This document shows, piece by piece, positions 1,579 to 51,266 of a stretch of 64,000 nucleotides of DNA (its first letter is position 1; each line of letters opens with the position of its first letter). The stretch comes from Pseudidiomarina homiensis. GTDB lineage: Bacteria > Pseudomonadota > Gammaproteobacteria > Enterobacterales > Alteromonadaceae. The notes beneath the pieces were generated by a model, which was not told where the DNA came from, did no database searches, and saw only the letters and a list, made by a program, of their open reading frames with translations. A program made the translations under genes and the position numbers. Where the stretch lies: the NCBI RefSeq assembly GCF_003987225.1, contig NZ_PIPX01000001.1:1302001-1366000 (forward strand), given 5' to 3'.

Positions 1579-1669
1579 GTAGCCCGTGGTTCTACCACGG
1601 GTCTAATCTGACGTTTCGGCCATCTTGATTCAATTCGGACGTAACCCGTGGTAGAACCACGGGCTACCA
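1579..1669. repeat. BIME 1: pair of inverted REPs, type A spacer
   Basis: Cores CCCGTGGTTCTACCACGGG at 1583-1601 and its inverse at 1645-1663, each with a GTAG head facing outward or a close variant (GTAA before the second). The spacer carries the type A sequence TGACGTTTC..CCAT..TTCAATTC. It lies between the ispB stop and the rplU promoter. Confidence 0.9.
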
Positions 1670-7744: not shown

Positions 7745-7830
7745 CCCGTGGTTCTACCACGGGTCCAGCCTGACATTTCAACCATGTACGTTCAATTCGA
7801 CAGACCCCGTGGTAGAACCACGGGCTACCA
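7740..7830. repeat. BIME 2 at the argR stop codon, type A spacer
   Basis: Inverted REP cores at 7745-7763 and 7806-7824. The left GTAG head (7741-7744) contains the argR stop codon. It fills most of the gap between the convergent argR and peroxidase genes, where no conventional terminator is visible, so the hairpins may end both transcripts. Confidence 0.92.
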
Positions 7831-16157: not shown

Positions 16158-16246
16158 TACCCCGTGGTTCTACCACGGGTCACACCTGACGTTTTCACCA
16201 TGTTGGTTCAATTCGGACGTTACCCGTGGTAGAACCACGGGCTACG
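16158..16246. repeat. BIME 3 upstream of acnB, type A spacer
   Basis: Inverted REP cores at 16161-16179 and 16223-16241; the left head is GTAC, the right one GTAG. It sits in the 392-bp gap (16020-16411) between the divergent acnB and the small secreted-protein gene, upstream of the acnB -10 and followed by the accessory repeat at 16277-16300. Confidence 0.9.
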
Positions 16247-17712: not shown

Positions 17713-17801
17713 GTAGCCCGTGGTTCTACCACGGGGGAGCCCGAATTGAACGGGCATGGTTGAAACGTCAGGTGTGACCCGTGGTAGAACCACGGGCTAC
17801 C
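17713..17801. repeat. BIME 4 in the LysR/RND divergent promoter region, type A spacer inverted
   Basis: Inverted REP cores at 17717-17735 and 17778-17796, GTAG heads outward. The spacer is the reverse complement of type A. It lies 19 bp from the LysR start codon, so it falls in the leader or promoter of that gene. Confidence 0.9.
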
Positions 17802-29467: not shown

Positions 29468-29558
29468 GGTAGCCCGTGGTTCTACCACGGGGAGTGTCGA
29501 ATTCAATAAATATGGCGGAAACGTCAGATTGGACCCGTAGTAGAACTACGGGCTACTA
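29468..29558. repeat. BIME 5, type A spacer inverted, one arm-compensated REP
   Basis: Core at 29473-29491 is the standard form. The facing core at 29534-29552 reads CCCGTAGTAGAACTACGGG, with both arms changed so that the stem stays paired. It lies between the lpd terminator and the ferritin-like gene. Confidence 0.9.
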
Positions 29559-31137: not shown

Positions 31138-32913
31138 TTATAGAACCAGCTTGCGAATATCTGACAATACGTTGCACAGATACACACTAAAGCGCGCAGC
31201 AACCGCACCGTCAATGACACGATGGTCGTAAGACAGGCTGGTCGGCAGCATTAAGCGTGGCTCAAAATCTTTGCCATTCCATTTCGGTTTCATTTCACTT
31301 TTTGACACACCGAGAATAGCAACGTCAGGGGCGTTAACGATTGGCGTAAATGCCGTACCGCCGATGCCACCAAGACTAGAGATTGAGAAACAACCGCCCT
31401 GCATGTCTTGTGCTTTCAGTTTGCCGTCACGCGCACGGGTGCTGACGTCGACCAACTCTTCTGACAATTCGTAAATGCCTTTTTTATCAACATCACGAAT
31501 GACTGGCACAACCAAGCCCCCAGGGGTGTCCACTGCGATACCGATATGAATGTATTTCTTCATGATCAGGTGCTCGCCGTCTTCGTGCAGTGACGAATTG
31601 AACACAGGGTATTCTTGCAGCGCTTTGGCGACGGCCTTCATGATGAACACCAATGGGGTGATCTTCACGCCGTCTTTTTTCTTCGCTTGTAGCTCGTTCT
31701 CTTGCTTACGGAATTTCTCGAGTTCAGTGATATCCGCTTCATCGAACTGCGTCACGTGTGGGATGGTTACCCAGTTGCGATGCAAGTTCGGGCCAGAAAT
31801 TTTCTGGATGCGGGTCATTGGCACTTCTTCGATCTCGCCAAACTTGCTGAAATCGACCTTCGGCGGTGCGATGACTTGTAAGCCACCGGCGCCTTGTGCA
31901 GTGCCAGCTGAAGCTGTTGCTTTCGGACGTGAAAGTTCGTATTTCACGTACTCTTGCACGTCTTCTTTCAAGATGCGCTCTTTGCGGCCCGAGCCTTTGA
32001 CTTGATTCAGGTCGACGCCGAATTCACGGGCCAGGCGGCGAACCGCTGGTGACGCGTAAGCGAGGCCTTCGGCTTTGCCCTTTTTGTCCAGCGGGTGATC
32101 CGGGACTGGTGGGGCTTTGCGTTCGCCGGAGGCGGTGACGCGGCCTTCGTCGGATTGGGCATCGGCGTTGTCATCAGATTTGCCCGTGGTAGAACCACGG
32201 GGTACATCGGTGTCGGTGGATGATCCCCCCGTGGTAGAACCACGGGGTTCGTCGGCGTCGGTGTCAGCCGATGAGGTGACTTCTAACGTGATGACGAGTG
32301 AGCCTTCGCTGACTTTGTCGCCGACGTTGACTTCCACGGACTTGACGGTGCCGGCTTCTGGCGACGGTACGTCCATGGTGGCTTTGTCGGTTTCGAGGGT
32401 GATCAGGCCGTCTTCTTTTTCGATGCTGTCGCCTTCGTTGACGAGCACTTCGATAACGTCGACTTCGCCGTCTTCACCGATGTCTGGGACTTTGACTTCG
32501 ATGGTTTTGGTTTCACCCGTGGTAGAACCACGGGCTACGTCGTCGGAATCGGCATCATCGTTGGCGTCGGATTCACCCGTGGTAGAACCACGGGGTACGT
32601 CGTCTTCGGCATCATCGTTGGTGTCGGATTCACCCGTGGTAGAACCACGGGGTACGTCGGCGTCAGCCGACGAGTCGGCGGCTTCGAGCATGGCGATGAG
32701 GTCGCCTTCGCTGATTTTGTCGCCAACGCTAACTTTGATTTCGCCCACGGTGCCGCCGAACGGTGCCGGGATGTCCATTGAGGCTTTGTCGCTTTCAACA
32801 GTGATCAAACCATCTTCGGCTTCAACGCTGTCGCCTTTGCTCACCAGAATTTCGATGACTTCGACTTCGTCGCCGCCGACATCGGGGGCGAGTACTTCTT
32901 TTAAATCTGCCAT
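31138..32913 (-). CDS. aceF: Pyruvate dehydrogenase E2 (dihydrolipoamide acetyltransferase) with REP-encoded linkers
   Basis: Core acetyltransferase of the pyruvate dehydrogenase complex, 591 residues. There are two lipoyl domains (about 1-78 and 134-212) with lipoyl lysines K43 in ESDKASMD and K177 in ETDKATMD; E. coli has three. The peripheral-subunit-binding domain is at about 286-324 (YASPAVRRLAREFGVDL). The catalytic domain runs from ~355 to the end, with H564 and D568 in SYDHRVIDG. The two linkers contain five repeats of the form V(P/A)RGSTTG(E) (residues 87-94, 106-113, 126-133, 222-229, 237-244), each encoded by a REP palindrome, separated by Asp/Ser/Asn-rich sequence instead of the usual Ala-Pro linker. 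aceE ends 21 bp upstream. Confidence 0.97.
   Translation of the reverse strand: MADLKEVLAPDVGGDEVEVIEILVSKGDSVEAEDGLITVESDKASMDIPAPFGGTVGEIKVSVGDKISEGDLIAMLEAADSSADADVPRGSTTGESDTNDDAEDDVPRGSTTGESDANDDADSDDVARGSTTGETKTIEVKVPDIGEDGEVDVIEVLVNEGDSIEKEDGLITLETDKATMDVPSPEAGTVKSVEVNVGDKVSEGSLVITLEVTSSADTDADEPRGSTTGGSSTDTDVPRGSTTGKSDDNADAQSDEGRVTASGERKAPPVPDHPLDKKGKAEGLAYASPAVRRLAREFGVDLNQVKGSGRKERILKEDVQEYVKYELSRPKATASAGTAQGAGGLQVIAPPKVDFSKFGEIEEVPMTRIQKISGPNLHRNWVTIPHVTQFDEADITELEKFRKQENELQAKKKDGVKITPLVFIMKAVAKALQEYPVFNSSLHEDGEHLIMKKYIHIGIAVDTPGGLVVPVIRDVDKKGIYELSEELVDVSTRARDGKLKAQDMQGGCFSISSLGGIGGTAFTPIVNAPDVAILGVSKSEMKPKWNGKDFEPRLMLPTSLSYDHRVIDGAVAARFSVYLCNVLSDIRKLVL
32180..32248. repeat. Two in-frame REP cores in the aceF lipoyl-2/PSBD linker
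   Basis: Cores at 32183-32201 and 32228-32246, same orientation, 45 bp (15 codons) apart. Read with aceF they encode VPRGSTTG and EPRGSTTG. The heads have drifted from GTAG to GTAC or GAAC, which avoids nothing in this frame but changes Ala to Pro. Confidence 0.93.
32513..32654. repeat. Three in-frame REP cores in the aceF lipoyl-1/lipoyl-2 linker
   Basis: Cores at 32516-32534, 32576-32594 and 32633-32651, same orientation, spaced 60 and 57 bp (20 and 19 codons). They encode [16 protein letters not shown] and VPRGSTTG. The intervening codons (ESDTNDD, ESDANDD) are themselves near-duplicates, indicating tandem duplication of a REP plus linker unit. Confidence 0.93.
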
Positions 32914-36408: not shown

Positions 36409-36628
36409 GGTACCCCGTGGTTCTACCAAGGGTCCAACCACACGTTTCGACCATGCCCGTTCAATTCAACGCTAGTAGCCCGTGGTTCTACCACGGGTCA
36501 CACCACACGTTTCGACCATGCCCGTTCAATTCAACGCTTGTAGCCCGTGGTTCTACCACGGGTCACACCTCACGTTTCGGCCATGCCCGTTCAATTCAAC
36601 ACCCCCCGTGGTAGAACCACGGGCTACT
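36409..36628. repeat. Tandem REP array in the pdhR operon leader (3 direct + 1 inverted)
   Basis: Cores at 36414-36432 (one arm mismatch), 36479-36497, 36544-36562 and, inverted, 36605-36623. The first three are 65-bp direct repeats with nearly identical type A spacers (ACGTTTCGACCATGCCCGTT). The array occupies most of the 341-bp gap 36370-36710; the promoter and operator lie at its upstream edge, so the array should be in the 5' leader of the mRNA. Confidence 0.92.
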
Positions 36629-45433: not shown

Positions 45434-45509
45434 CCCGTAGTTCTACTACGGGGAAGCTACAACCACCGCGCAATGTTCGGATTTGACCCGTGGTAGAACC
45501 ACGGGCTAC
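45430..45509. repeat. BIME 6 joining the zapD and antitoxin stop codons, type B spacer
   Basis: Cores at 45434-45452 (arm-compensated CCCGTAGTTCTACTACGGG) and, inverted, 45487-45505. The left GTAG head contains the zapD stop and the right head contains the antitoxin stop (45506-45508). The spacer is type B: AGCTACAACCACCGCGCAATG. Confidence 0.92.
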
Positions 45510-46426: not shown

Positions 46427-46574
46427 GTAGCCCGTAGTTCTACTACGGGGTAGCTACAACCACCGCGCAATGTTCGGGTTTGACCCGTGGTAGCCCGTAG
46501 TTCTACTACGGGGGAGCTACAACCATTCCGCAATGTTCAGATTGGACCCGTGGTAGAACCACGGGGTACAACCG
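46427..46574. repeat. REP cluster 7: three full REPs and one truncated, type B spacers
   Basis: Cores at 46431-46449 and 46494-46512 (both CCCGTAGTTCTACTACGGG) and, inverted, 46547-46565 (standard). Between them ACCCGTGGTAG (46483-46493) is half of an inverted core running straight into the next GTAG head, so one element is truncated by the next. Both spacers are type B. Confidence 0.9.
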
Positions 46575-51183: not shown

Positions 51184-51266
51184 GGTAGCCCGTGGTTCTA
51201 CCACGGGTCCAACCCGAACATTTCAAAATGGTTGTAGCTTCCCCCGTGGTAGAACCACGGGCTACT
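51184..51266. repeat. BIME 8 between dciA and lpxC, type B spacer inverted
   Basis: Inverted REP cores at 51189-51207 and 51243-51261 with GTAG heads, starting three bases after the dciA stop and ending 8 bp before the lpxC stop. No other terminator is visible between these convergent genes. Confidence 0.92.

Follow-up and report, generated by a model that had tools for sequence, protein, structure and literature searches.

REPs of the GTAG and CGTC classes inside open reading frames (ORFs) have been catalogued previously (BMC Genomics 2013, 14:522; PMC3733652). According to the main text of that catalogue, single or paired REPs lie entirely within ORFs and were proposed to form flexible linkers or loops; one shared-site case was described, recB of two Xanthomonas species, in which the REP position is about the same. 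In-frame intragenic REPs are therefore of a kind already known, and in-frame insertion is known classically from the Rickettsia palindromic elements. The TnpA-REP enzymes have been studied as acting on single-stranded REPs. With a GTAC head, cleavage by the Stenotrophomonas enzyme was lost, as it was with head substitutions for the E. coli enzyme, whereas the Marinomonas enzyme tolerated a GTAC head, with another cleavage site (PMC8266576).

Here we analyzed a 64-kb stretch of DNA, hereafter the window, of one Pseudidiomarina genome (G000), and the REP sites of its relatives. The window contains aceF with five REPs and nine further REP sites (Table 1).

Table 1. aceF, its REPs and the other REP sites of the window
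Feature	Position in the window	Strand	Details
aceF (pyruvate dehydrogenase E2)	31138..32913	-	Host gene of five REPs; 591 aa; NCBIfam TIGR01348, 3e-216
REP 1	32633..32655	-	GTAC head; VPRGSTTG, residues 87-94; linker 1
REP 2	32576..32598	-	GTAC head; VPRGSTTG, residues 106-113; linker 1
REP 3	32516..32538	-	Intact GTAG head; VARGSTTG, residues 126-133; linker 1
REP 4	32228..32250	-	GAAC head; EPRGSTTG, residues 222-229; linker 2
REP 5	32183..32205	-	GTAC head; VPRGSTTG, residues 237-244; linker 2
Inverted REP pair	1583..1663		No long ORF across
Inverted REP pair	7745..7824		No long ORF across
Inverted REP pair	16161..16241		No long ORF across
Inverted REP pair	17717..17796		Upstream of likely start of LysR-like gene
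Inverted REP pair	29473..29552		Between E3 gene and peptidase-like ORF that ends upstream
Three REPs	36479..36623		Upstream of pdhR-like gene; degenerate fourth at 36414-36432
Inverted REP pair	45434..45505		First core of TAG arm type
Three REPs	46431..46565		Two of TAG arm type
Inverted REP pair	51189..51261		

The linkers of 2-oxoacid dehydrogenase E2 proteins such as AceF are long and mobile. A preliminary description of this DNA had placed five exact 19-bp cores in aceF, in one orientation and one frame, and this was confirmed: the core, CCCGTGGTAGAACCACGGG on the + strand, starts at 32183, 32228, 32516, 32576 and 32633, with the claimed start-to-start spacings of 45, 60 and 57 bp. Its statement that the cores are confined to the two linkers around lipoyl domain 2 (residues 139–210) is borne out by the Pfam layout of AceF, which consists of two Biotin_lipoyl stretches (the better one at 139–210), the E3_binding domain (286–320) and the catalytic domain (360–590). 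Three REPs thus separate the two lipoyl domains, and the other two lie between lipoyl domain 2 and the E3_binding domain. The GTAG head is kept by one of the five REPs, the copy at 32516; three of the others have GTAC and one has GAAC. Judging by the different behaviors of the Stenotrophomonas and Marinomonas enzymes on GTAC heads, the four copies lacking GTAG may or may not be stranded.

Linker 1 shows repeats of 57 and 60 bp whose tails are acidic; local duplication therefore probably added REP copies, in line with the earlier claim that the REPs were amplified together with their acidic neighbors. The closest AceF, that of P. sp. CB1, is 97% identical. The aceF linkers of several loci (L011–L016, L021, L022 and L026) also contain perfect palindromes with arms of 9–12 bp (TGCATCKTCTG..GATGCA; CCTCTTCGCCT..AGGCGAAGAGG). 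We considered such palindromes as further mobile families and rejected them, as they appear to be internal to aceF and not dispersed: TGCATC..GATGCA is found at aceF loci only, in 6 of the 26 genus genomes, and CCTCTTCGCCT..AGGCGAAGAGG and GGGTCAGACCC..GGATCTGACCC are found in aceF only within the fetched stretches of G004, which cover part of that genome.

In G000, the exact 19-bp core occurs in 77 copies and the wider hairpin pattern CCCGNNNTTCYANNNCGGG in 156, and the reversed control patterns gave 0 matches; these counts are beyond chance. The claim that the aceF cores are a genome-wide REP in coding frame is supported. GTAG precedes the core in 119/146 cases in G000 (the cores of the first fetched stretches), 46/47 in G004, 50/52 in G002 and 21/21 in G007. 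Many G000 cores form inverted pairs, which are 61–62 bp apart, mostly 61 bp, and the arms are of four main variants (TGG, CAG, TAG and TAC). A RAYT gene lies among the REPs at about 1.2446–1.2453 Mb of C1 (NCBIfam 3.4e-44; 150 bits, cut-off 80). Short GTAG-headed hairpins, many copies and inverted pairs identify the element as a GTAG-class REP with its RAYT. As in REPINs and REPtrons, inverted pairs occur together with a REP-flanked RAYT gene, the REPs standing on both sides of it in G000, G015 and G004. Thirteen of 162 G000 cores lie inside identified gene bodies and 149 elsewhere, so the family is mostly intergenic (150 of the 156 strict matches fell within the examined stretches and 6 outside).

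RAYT and REP numbers track each other poorly. G002, with 53 matches, has only a longer relative; G012 has 13 matches and no RAYT, and G014 one RAYT and no core. G015, which is outside clades A and B described below, holds 35 exact TGG-type cores of the G000 kind and a RAYT of its own; a REP and its RAYT may therefore have been transferred as a unit. Among the matches listed, most REP sites of G000 cluster at about 1.07–1.38 Mb of C1, the largest contig. At 36414–36441 of the window, a GTG opens the pdhR-like ORF, together with a REP in degenerate form (MVGPLVEPRGTT); the true start of the gene is probably a downstream ATG.

The REPs inside genes are not specific to aceF. We scanned the REP-bearing stretches of six genomes in a frame-neutral way and assigned gene families by Pfam and NCBIfam. 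In G000, further in-frame cores are present in the genes of a branched-chain-type E2 (three cores), RodZ (two) and SucB, Der and HscA (one each), which gives 13 in-gene cores in six genes with aceF included; the name branched-chain-type is our reading from sequence, no NCBIfam equivalog scoring above its cut-off. Nine of the 13 sit in the three E2 genes, as the long mobile linkers of E2 proteins would explain. The SucB-type E2 (L172:12364-13953) has two lipoyl stretches by Pfam; SucB-type E2 proteins usually have one.

Among the relatives, RodZ carries in-frame REPs also in G002 and G015, YjbH at a like place (by eye) in G002 and G007 and at another place in G004, and a CBS/DUF294 protein in G004. 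In G015 (L307 and L306), gspC, gspE, gspJ and gspL, and also rodZ, hold in-frame REPs or inverted pairs; the element is carried here by several genes for type II secretion within one region. An inverted pair has its two halves in frame in YjbH (G002 and G007), in RodZ, GspE and GspL (G015) and in HscA (G004). Among inverted pairs shorter than 130 bp, the spacing is divisible by three in all four in-gene pairs (75, 81, 48 and 48) versus 15 of 96 other pairs. Like the Rickettsia palindromic elements, the same element is thus both dispersed outside genes and present in frame in several unrelated genes. REP-free orthologues of Der, HscA and E2 also exist in the genus; the exact ends of the inserts are undefined.

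In identified gene bodies, the sense cores read GTA GCC CGN NNT TCN ANN NCG GGN, and the predicted peptide is V-A-R-x-S-T-x-G or a close variant. This register splits the 19 bases as 2+15+2 and is identical from either strand. For all 64 arm triplets with two loops, it is free of stops in both orientations, whereas the other four registers contain stops in 6, 38, 67 and 128 of 128 cases. As no stop arises whatever the arms, an open reading phase is built into the REP. About 15 distinct gene positions, each counted once, use this register: aceF linkers 1 and 2, three sites in the branched-chain-type E2, two in SucB, two in YjbH, and one each in HscA, Der, RodZ, DUF294, gspE and gspL. If two sense registers are open, the chance that all 15 positions fall in this one is about 3e-5 by simple arithmetic, the positions being not all independent events. 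Lone antisense cores of GspC and GspJ in G015 are also in the symmetric register; they are consistent with the rule and have no sense partner.

The preliminary description was right that two of the six frames contain a stop, for the aceF arm type with the GTAG head counted. Its contrast of a polar peptide with the hydrophobic or aromatic ones of other frames is a weak argument for the frame: the hydropathy of the peptide used is -0.19, no more hydrophilic than that of SPWFYHG (-0.77), one of the peptides not used. The register is better explained by freedom from stops.

ORFs with a REP in another register were considered as exceptions and set aside, partly by eye, as cases upstream of the likely start or as short ORFs, spurious in appearance or covered by longer ones. 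Judged by eye, the off-register REPs of RuvB-like, LysR-like, methyltransferase-like, RAYT and prepilin-like genes are upstream of the likely start; so are those of a 664-aa phosphatase/kinase-like ORF (L179), which fall in several registers. ORFs of 170 aa (L256) and 145 aa (L292) with off-register REPs were judged spurious, also by eye. Should one of these ORFs be a genuine gene body, it would be an exception to the single register. Two prepilin-like genes (..TGFTLVEV and ..HAGFTLVEV) are located on the minus strand at L182:1305-2171 and 2162-2839, about 1.2353–1.2368 Mb of C1. In both, a REP array extends up to the prepilin start, and the last REP reads GTG GTA GAA CCA CGG in frame; translation could therefore start at a GTG within the REP.

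To compare the REP peptides at the DNA level, we searched five families for them by peptide instead of by DNA, in 25 genomes for aceF, 24 for the branched-chain-type E2, 18 for SucB, 25 for Der and 24 for HscA, some records being partial. All 49 REP-type peptides are written in REP codons. The arms at these 49 sites form eight of eight pairs in 46 cases and seven pairs in three, and each of the six arm variants found there changes both arms to match. Where compared, the in-gene arm types follow the dispersed ones of the same genome: GCG in G004, TAC in G003, and TGG, TAG and CAG in G000 and G002. Where residues are identical, the codons differ in 53/389 pairwise comparisons (14%) within REPs and in 9479/23597 (40%) elsewhere, the genome pairs being not independent; the preliminary description had proposed such a comparison for aceF. 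Both amino acids and synonymous sites of the REP peptides are conserved, so selection on the peptide is inseparable from conservation at the DNA level.

In the nine core-free genomes, the available genes encode no such peptide. We also retrieved aceF loci by protein, fetching the best 80 of 484, of which 76 were readable. Eight of the 76 encode the peptide, and all eight belong to genomes of the genus that hold the REP; RGSTTG linkers written with other codons in a REP-free species, which the preliminary description had named as the sign of convergence, were not found among them. Convergence of proteins on an RGSTTG-like linker with no mobile element, for which no supporting point was found, has next to no chance of being right, as the peptide is in REP codons in 49/49 cases and is encoded by no REP-free genome examined. 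Against the insertion reading it counts that G008, G009, G015, G023 and G024 have cores and none in the five families, although G015 has in-frame REPs in RodZ and in the type II secretion genes. The poor tracking of RAYT and REP numbers counts against it as well.

The history of the sites was followed on a tree of 23 genomes built from five concatenated proteins, in which several deep splits have support of 58–85. Clade A contains G000, G021, G002, G010, G003, G007, G024, G013 and G016, and clade B contains G004, G019, G025, G012, G022, G006 and G005; REP-poor branches lie between them. The HscA REP follows the same conserved helix in both clades and is absent in several genomes between; its arms differ between the clades, the peptide being VARSSTTG or VARSSTAG in clade A and VARRSTPG in clade B. 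The Der REP is at a like place in clade A and in G025 of clade B. HscA of G003 has VALSSTTE, written GTA GCC CTT AGT TCT ACT ACG GAG, which by its codons makes a convincing decayed REP copy; the third E2 site is also decayed in G003 (VAGGSTK) and in G007. Whether HscA of G024 and Der of G024 and G013 are decayed copies is uncertain. Exact empty sites were not found among the linkers, which are too divergent, no target duplication could be defined and no insertion was seen directly. We read the pattern as repeated entry at permissive sites; loss together with replacement could also have produced it.

The same pattern bears on a second reading, in which the in-gene palindromes are old and shared by descent, their symmetry being maintained through template switching between the arms or through dispersed copies that replace them, and not through repeated new insertion. 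The like places of the HscA and Der REPs in clades A and B would agree with it, as would the relic in HscA of G003, at the same place as the REPs of G000, G021, G002 and G010, and the TAG/CAG arm switches at orthologous sites. However, empty orthologues separate the two clades on the tree, the site positions are off by a few residues, and RodZ has a full inverted pair in G015, outside clade A, and single or double REPs within it. We regard old palindromes shared by descent as a possibility worth keeping in mind, and as the less probable account.

The preliminary description had called the linkers domesticated or co-opted, which is not supported: the lengths of REP-free linkers overlap with those of REP-bearing ones, the number of copies varies and some orthologous copies within genes decay. 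Domestication would mean that the RGSTTG-type peptide now functions as a linker under selection, in E2 and other proteins, with its copy number tuned. The peptide is conserved, its recurrence extends to three E2 genes and to similar places in two clades, and the REP-bearing AceF proteins are somewhat longer, a point that a functional reading may use as well: the residues before the E3-binding domain number 279–306 in 10 REP-bearing AceF proteins (mean 293) and 247–316 in 13 REP-free ones (mean 274), one record broken by unknown residues being excluded. As the two ranges overlap, REPs accompany somewhat longer linkers yet are not required for them. Besides, copy number falls from five in G000 to three in G021 and one in G002, its nearest relatives, copies have decayed in HscA of G003 and, in both G003 and G007, at the third E2 site, and unrelated proteins hold the same peptide. 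Selection for the peptide as a linker thus appears unlikely, and the REP peptide is most likely a tolerated filler.

A function of the nucleic acid would instead keep the hairpins at the level of mRNA or DNA, where they would regulate, pause translation or bind proteins, with the peptide as a by-product. The predicted fold of the aceF linker RNA is more stable than 100/100 shuffles (z -5.5), and the palindromes are intact with conserved synonymous sites; a young REP without function would show identical signs, though, and the fold by itself does not imply function. In the prediction, only three cores form hairpins of their own, the last two pairing with each other, and hairpin-free orthologues exist. 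We consider a role of the hairpins themselves very unlikely.

Taken together, these observations make it very probable that the aceF cores are copies of the GTAG-class REP that entered coding DNA in frame and are tolerated in flexible linkers. In-frame insertion of REPs is well supported; domestication of the REP peptide is not shown. Observed directly are the identity of the repeats as REPs, their copies across the genome, the RAYT gene among them, the single register in the identified gene bodies and the REP-bearing and REP-free orthologues. By analogy with the TnpA-REP enzymes, the RAYT, acting on single-stranded REPs, would carry single REPs or inverted pairs into genes. Purifying selection would then purge nearly all of them except inserts in linkers or loops that are free of stops and have a length divisible by three, and the symmetric register would persist as the one that is stop-free with any arms and gives mostly small polar residues. 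In aceF, local tandem duplication, with the acidic flanks included, probably multiplied the copies. The palindromes within genes may owe their intact arms to a young age, to replacement by further REP copies or to correction of one arm by the other.

A wider proposal goes with in-frame insertion, which we hold tentatively and find nearly as easy to accept as to doubt: the REP would be a coding-compatible selfish element whose one symmetric register stays open under any change of the arms, which would let it enter genes in either orientation. The linkers of core machines (three E2 proteins, HscA, Der, RodZ and type II secretion) would then evolve in concert with the extragenic repeats, with insertions, switches of subfamily, local amplifications and decay in place of ordinary point change. 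The genus offers a multi-species natural experiment on the passage from mobile palindrome to protein, as the linkers of AceF, two other E2 proteins, HscA, Der and RodZ are found with the REP, without it or in other versions. It makes testable both the shaping of proteins by REP turnover and the neutrality of REP peptides in essential enzymes. The symmetric stop-free register, together with a pair spacing divisible by three, provides a rule for finding REP-coded peptides in other genomes.

In the literature accessible to our search, no paper on REPs inside genes of Idiomarina or Pseudidiomarina was found; the matches included a paper on rep-PCR typing of Pseudidiomarina and one on milk microbiota. 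Nor was a genus-wide REP family in one register found in that literature, which includes few subscription journals, or in the main text of PMC3733652. Like the REPIN/RAYT systems (PMC8266576, PMC3116915), as far as those texts describe them, the present family has a GTAG head, a hairpin, inverted pairs and a nearby HuH transposase gene; different from the systems described in the available part of PMC8266576, part of the Pseudidiomarina family is protein-coding. The small mobile repeats of enterobacteria are likewise found within ORFs, but these intragenic units, as given in the part of PMC2759123 available, are of another type and are 103–168 bp in length, longer than the REP here. The Rickettsia palindromic elements share with the present REPs the in-frame palindromic repeats, the many unrelated genes and the conserved peptide (available text of PMC10969869 and PMC3733652), but they are about 150 bp in length (PMC10969869), whereas the element here is a 23-bp GTAG REP with a RAYT. 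Closest are the intragenic REPs of PMC3733652, which are also of the GTAG class, single or paired, and inside ORFs; the emphasis there is on DNA repair genes, and the main text names neither Idiomarina nor pyruvate dehydrogenase. Different from the cases in that text, the REPs described here form a genus-wide series at orthologous linkers, in one symmetric register and with local amplification in aceF. What appears to be new is the recurrence across a genus, the fixed, symmetric and stop-free register in about a dozen protein families and the species-matched variants at orthologous linkers.
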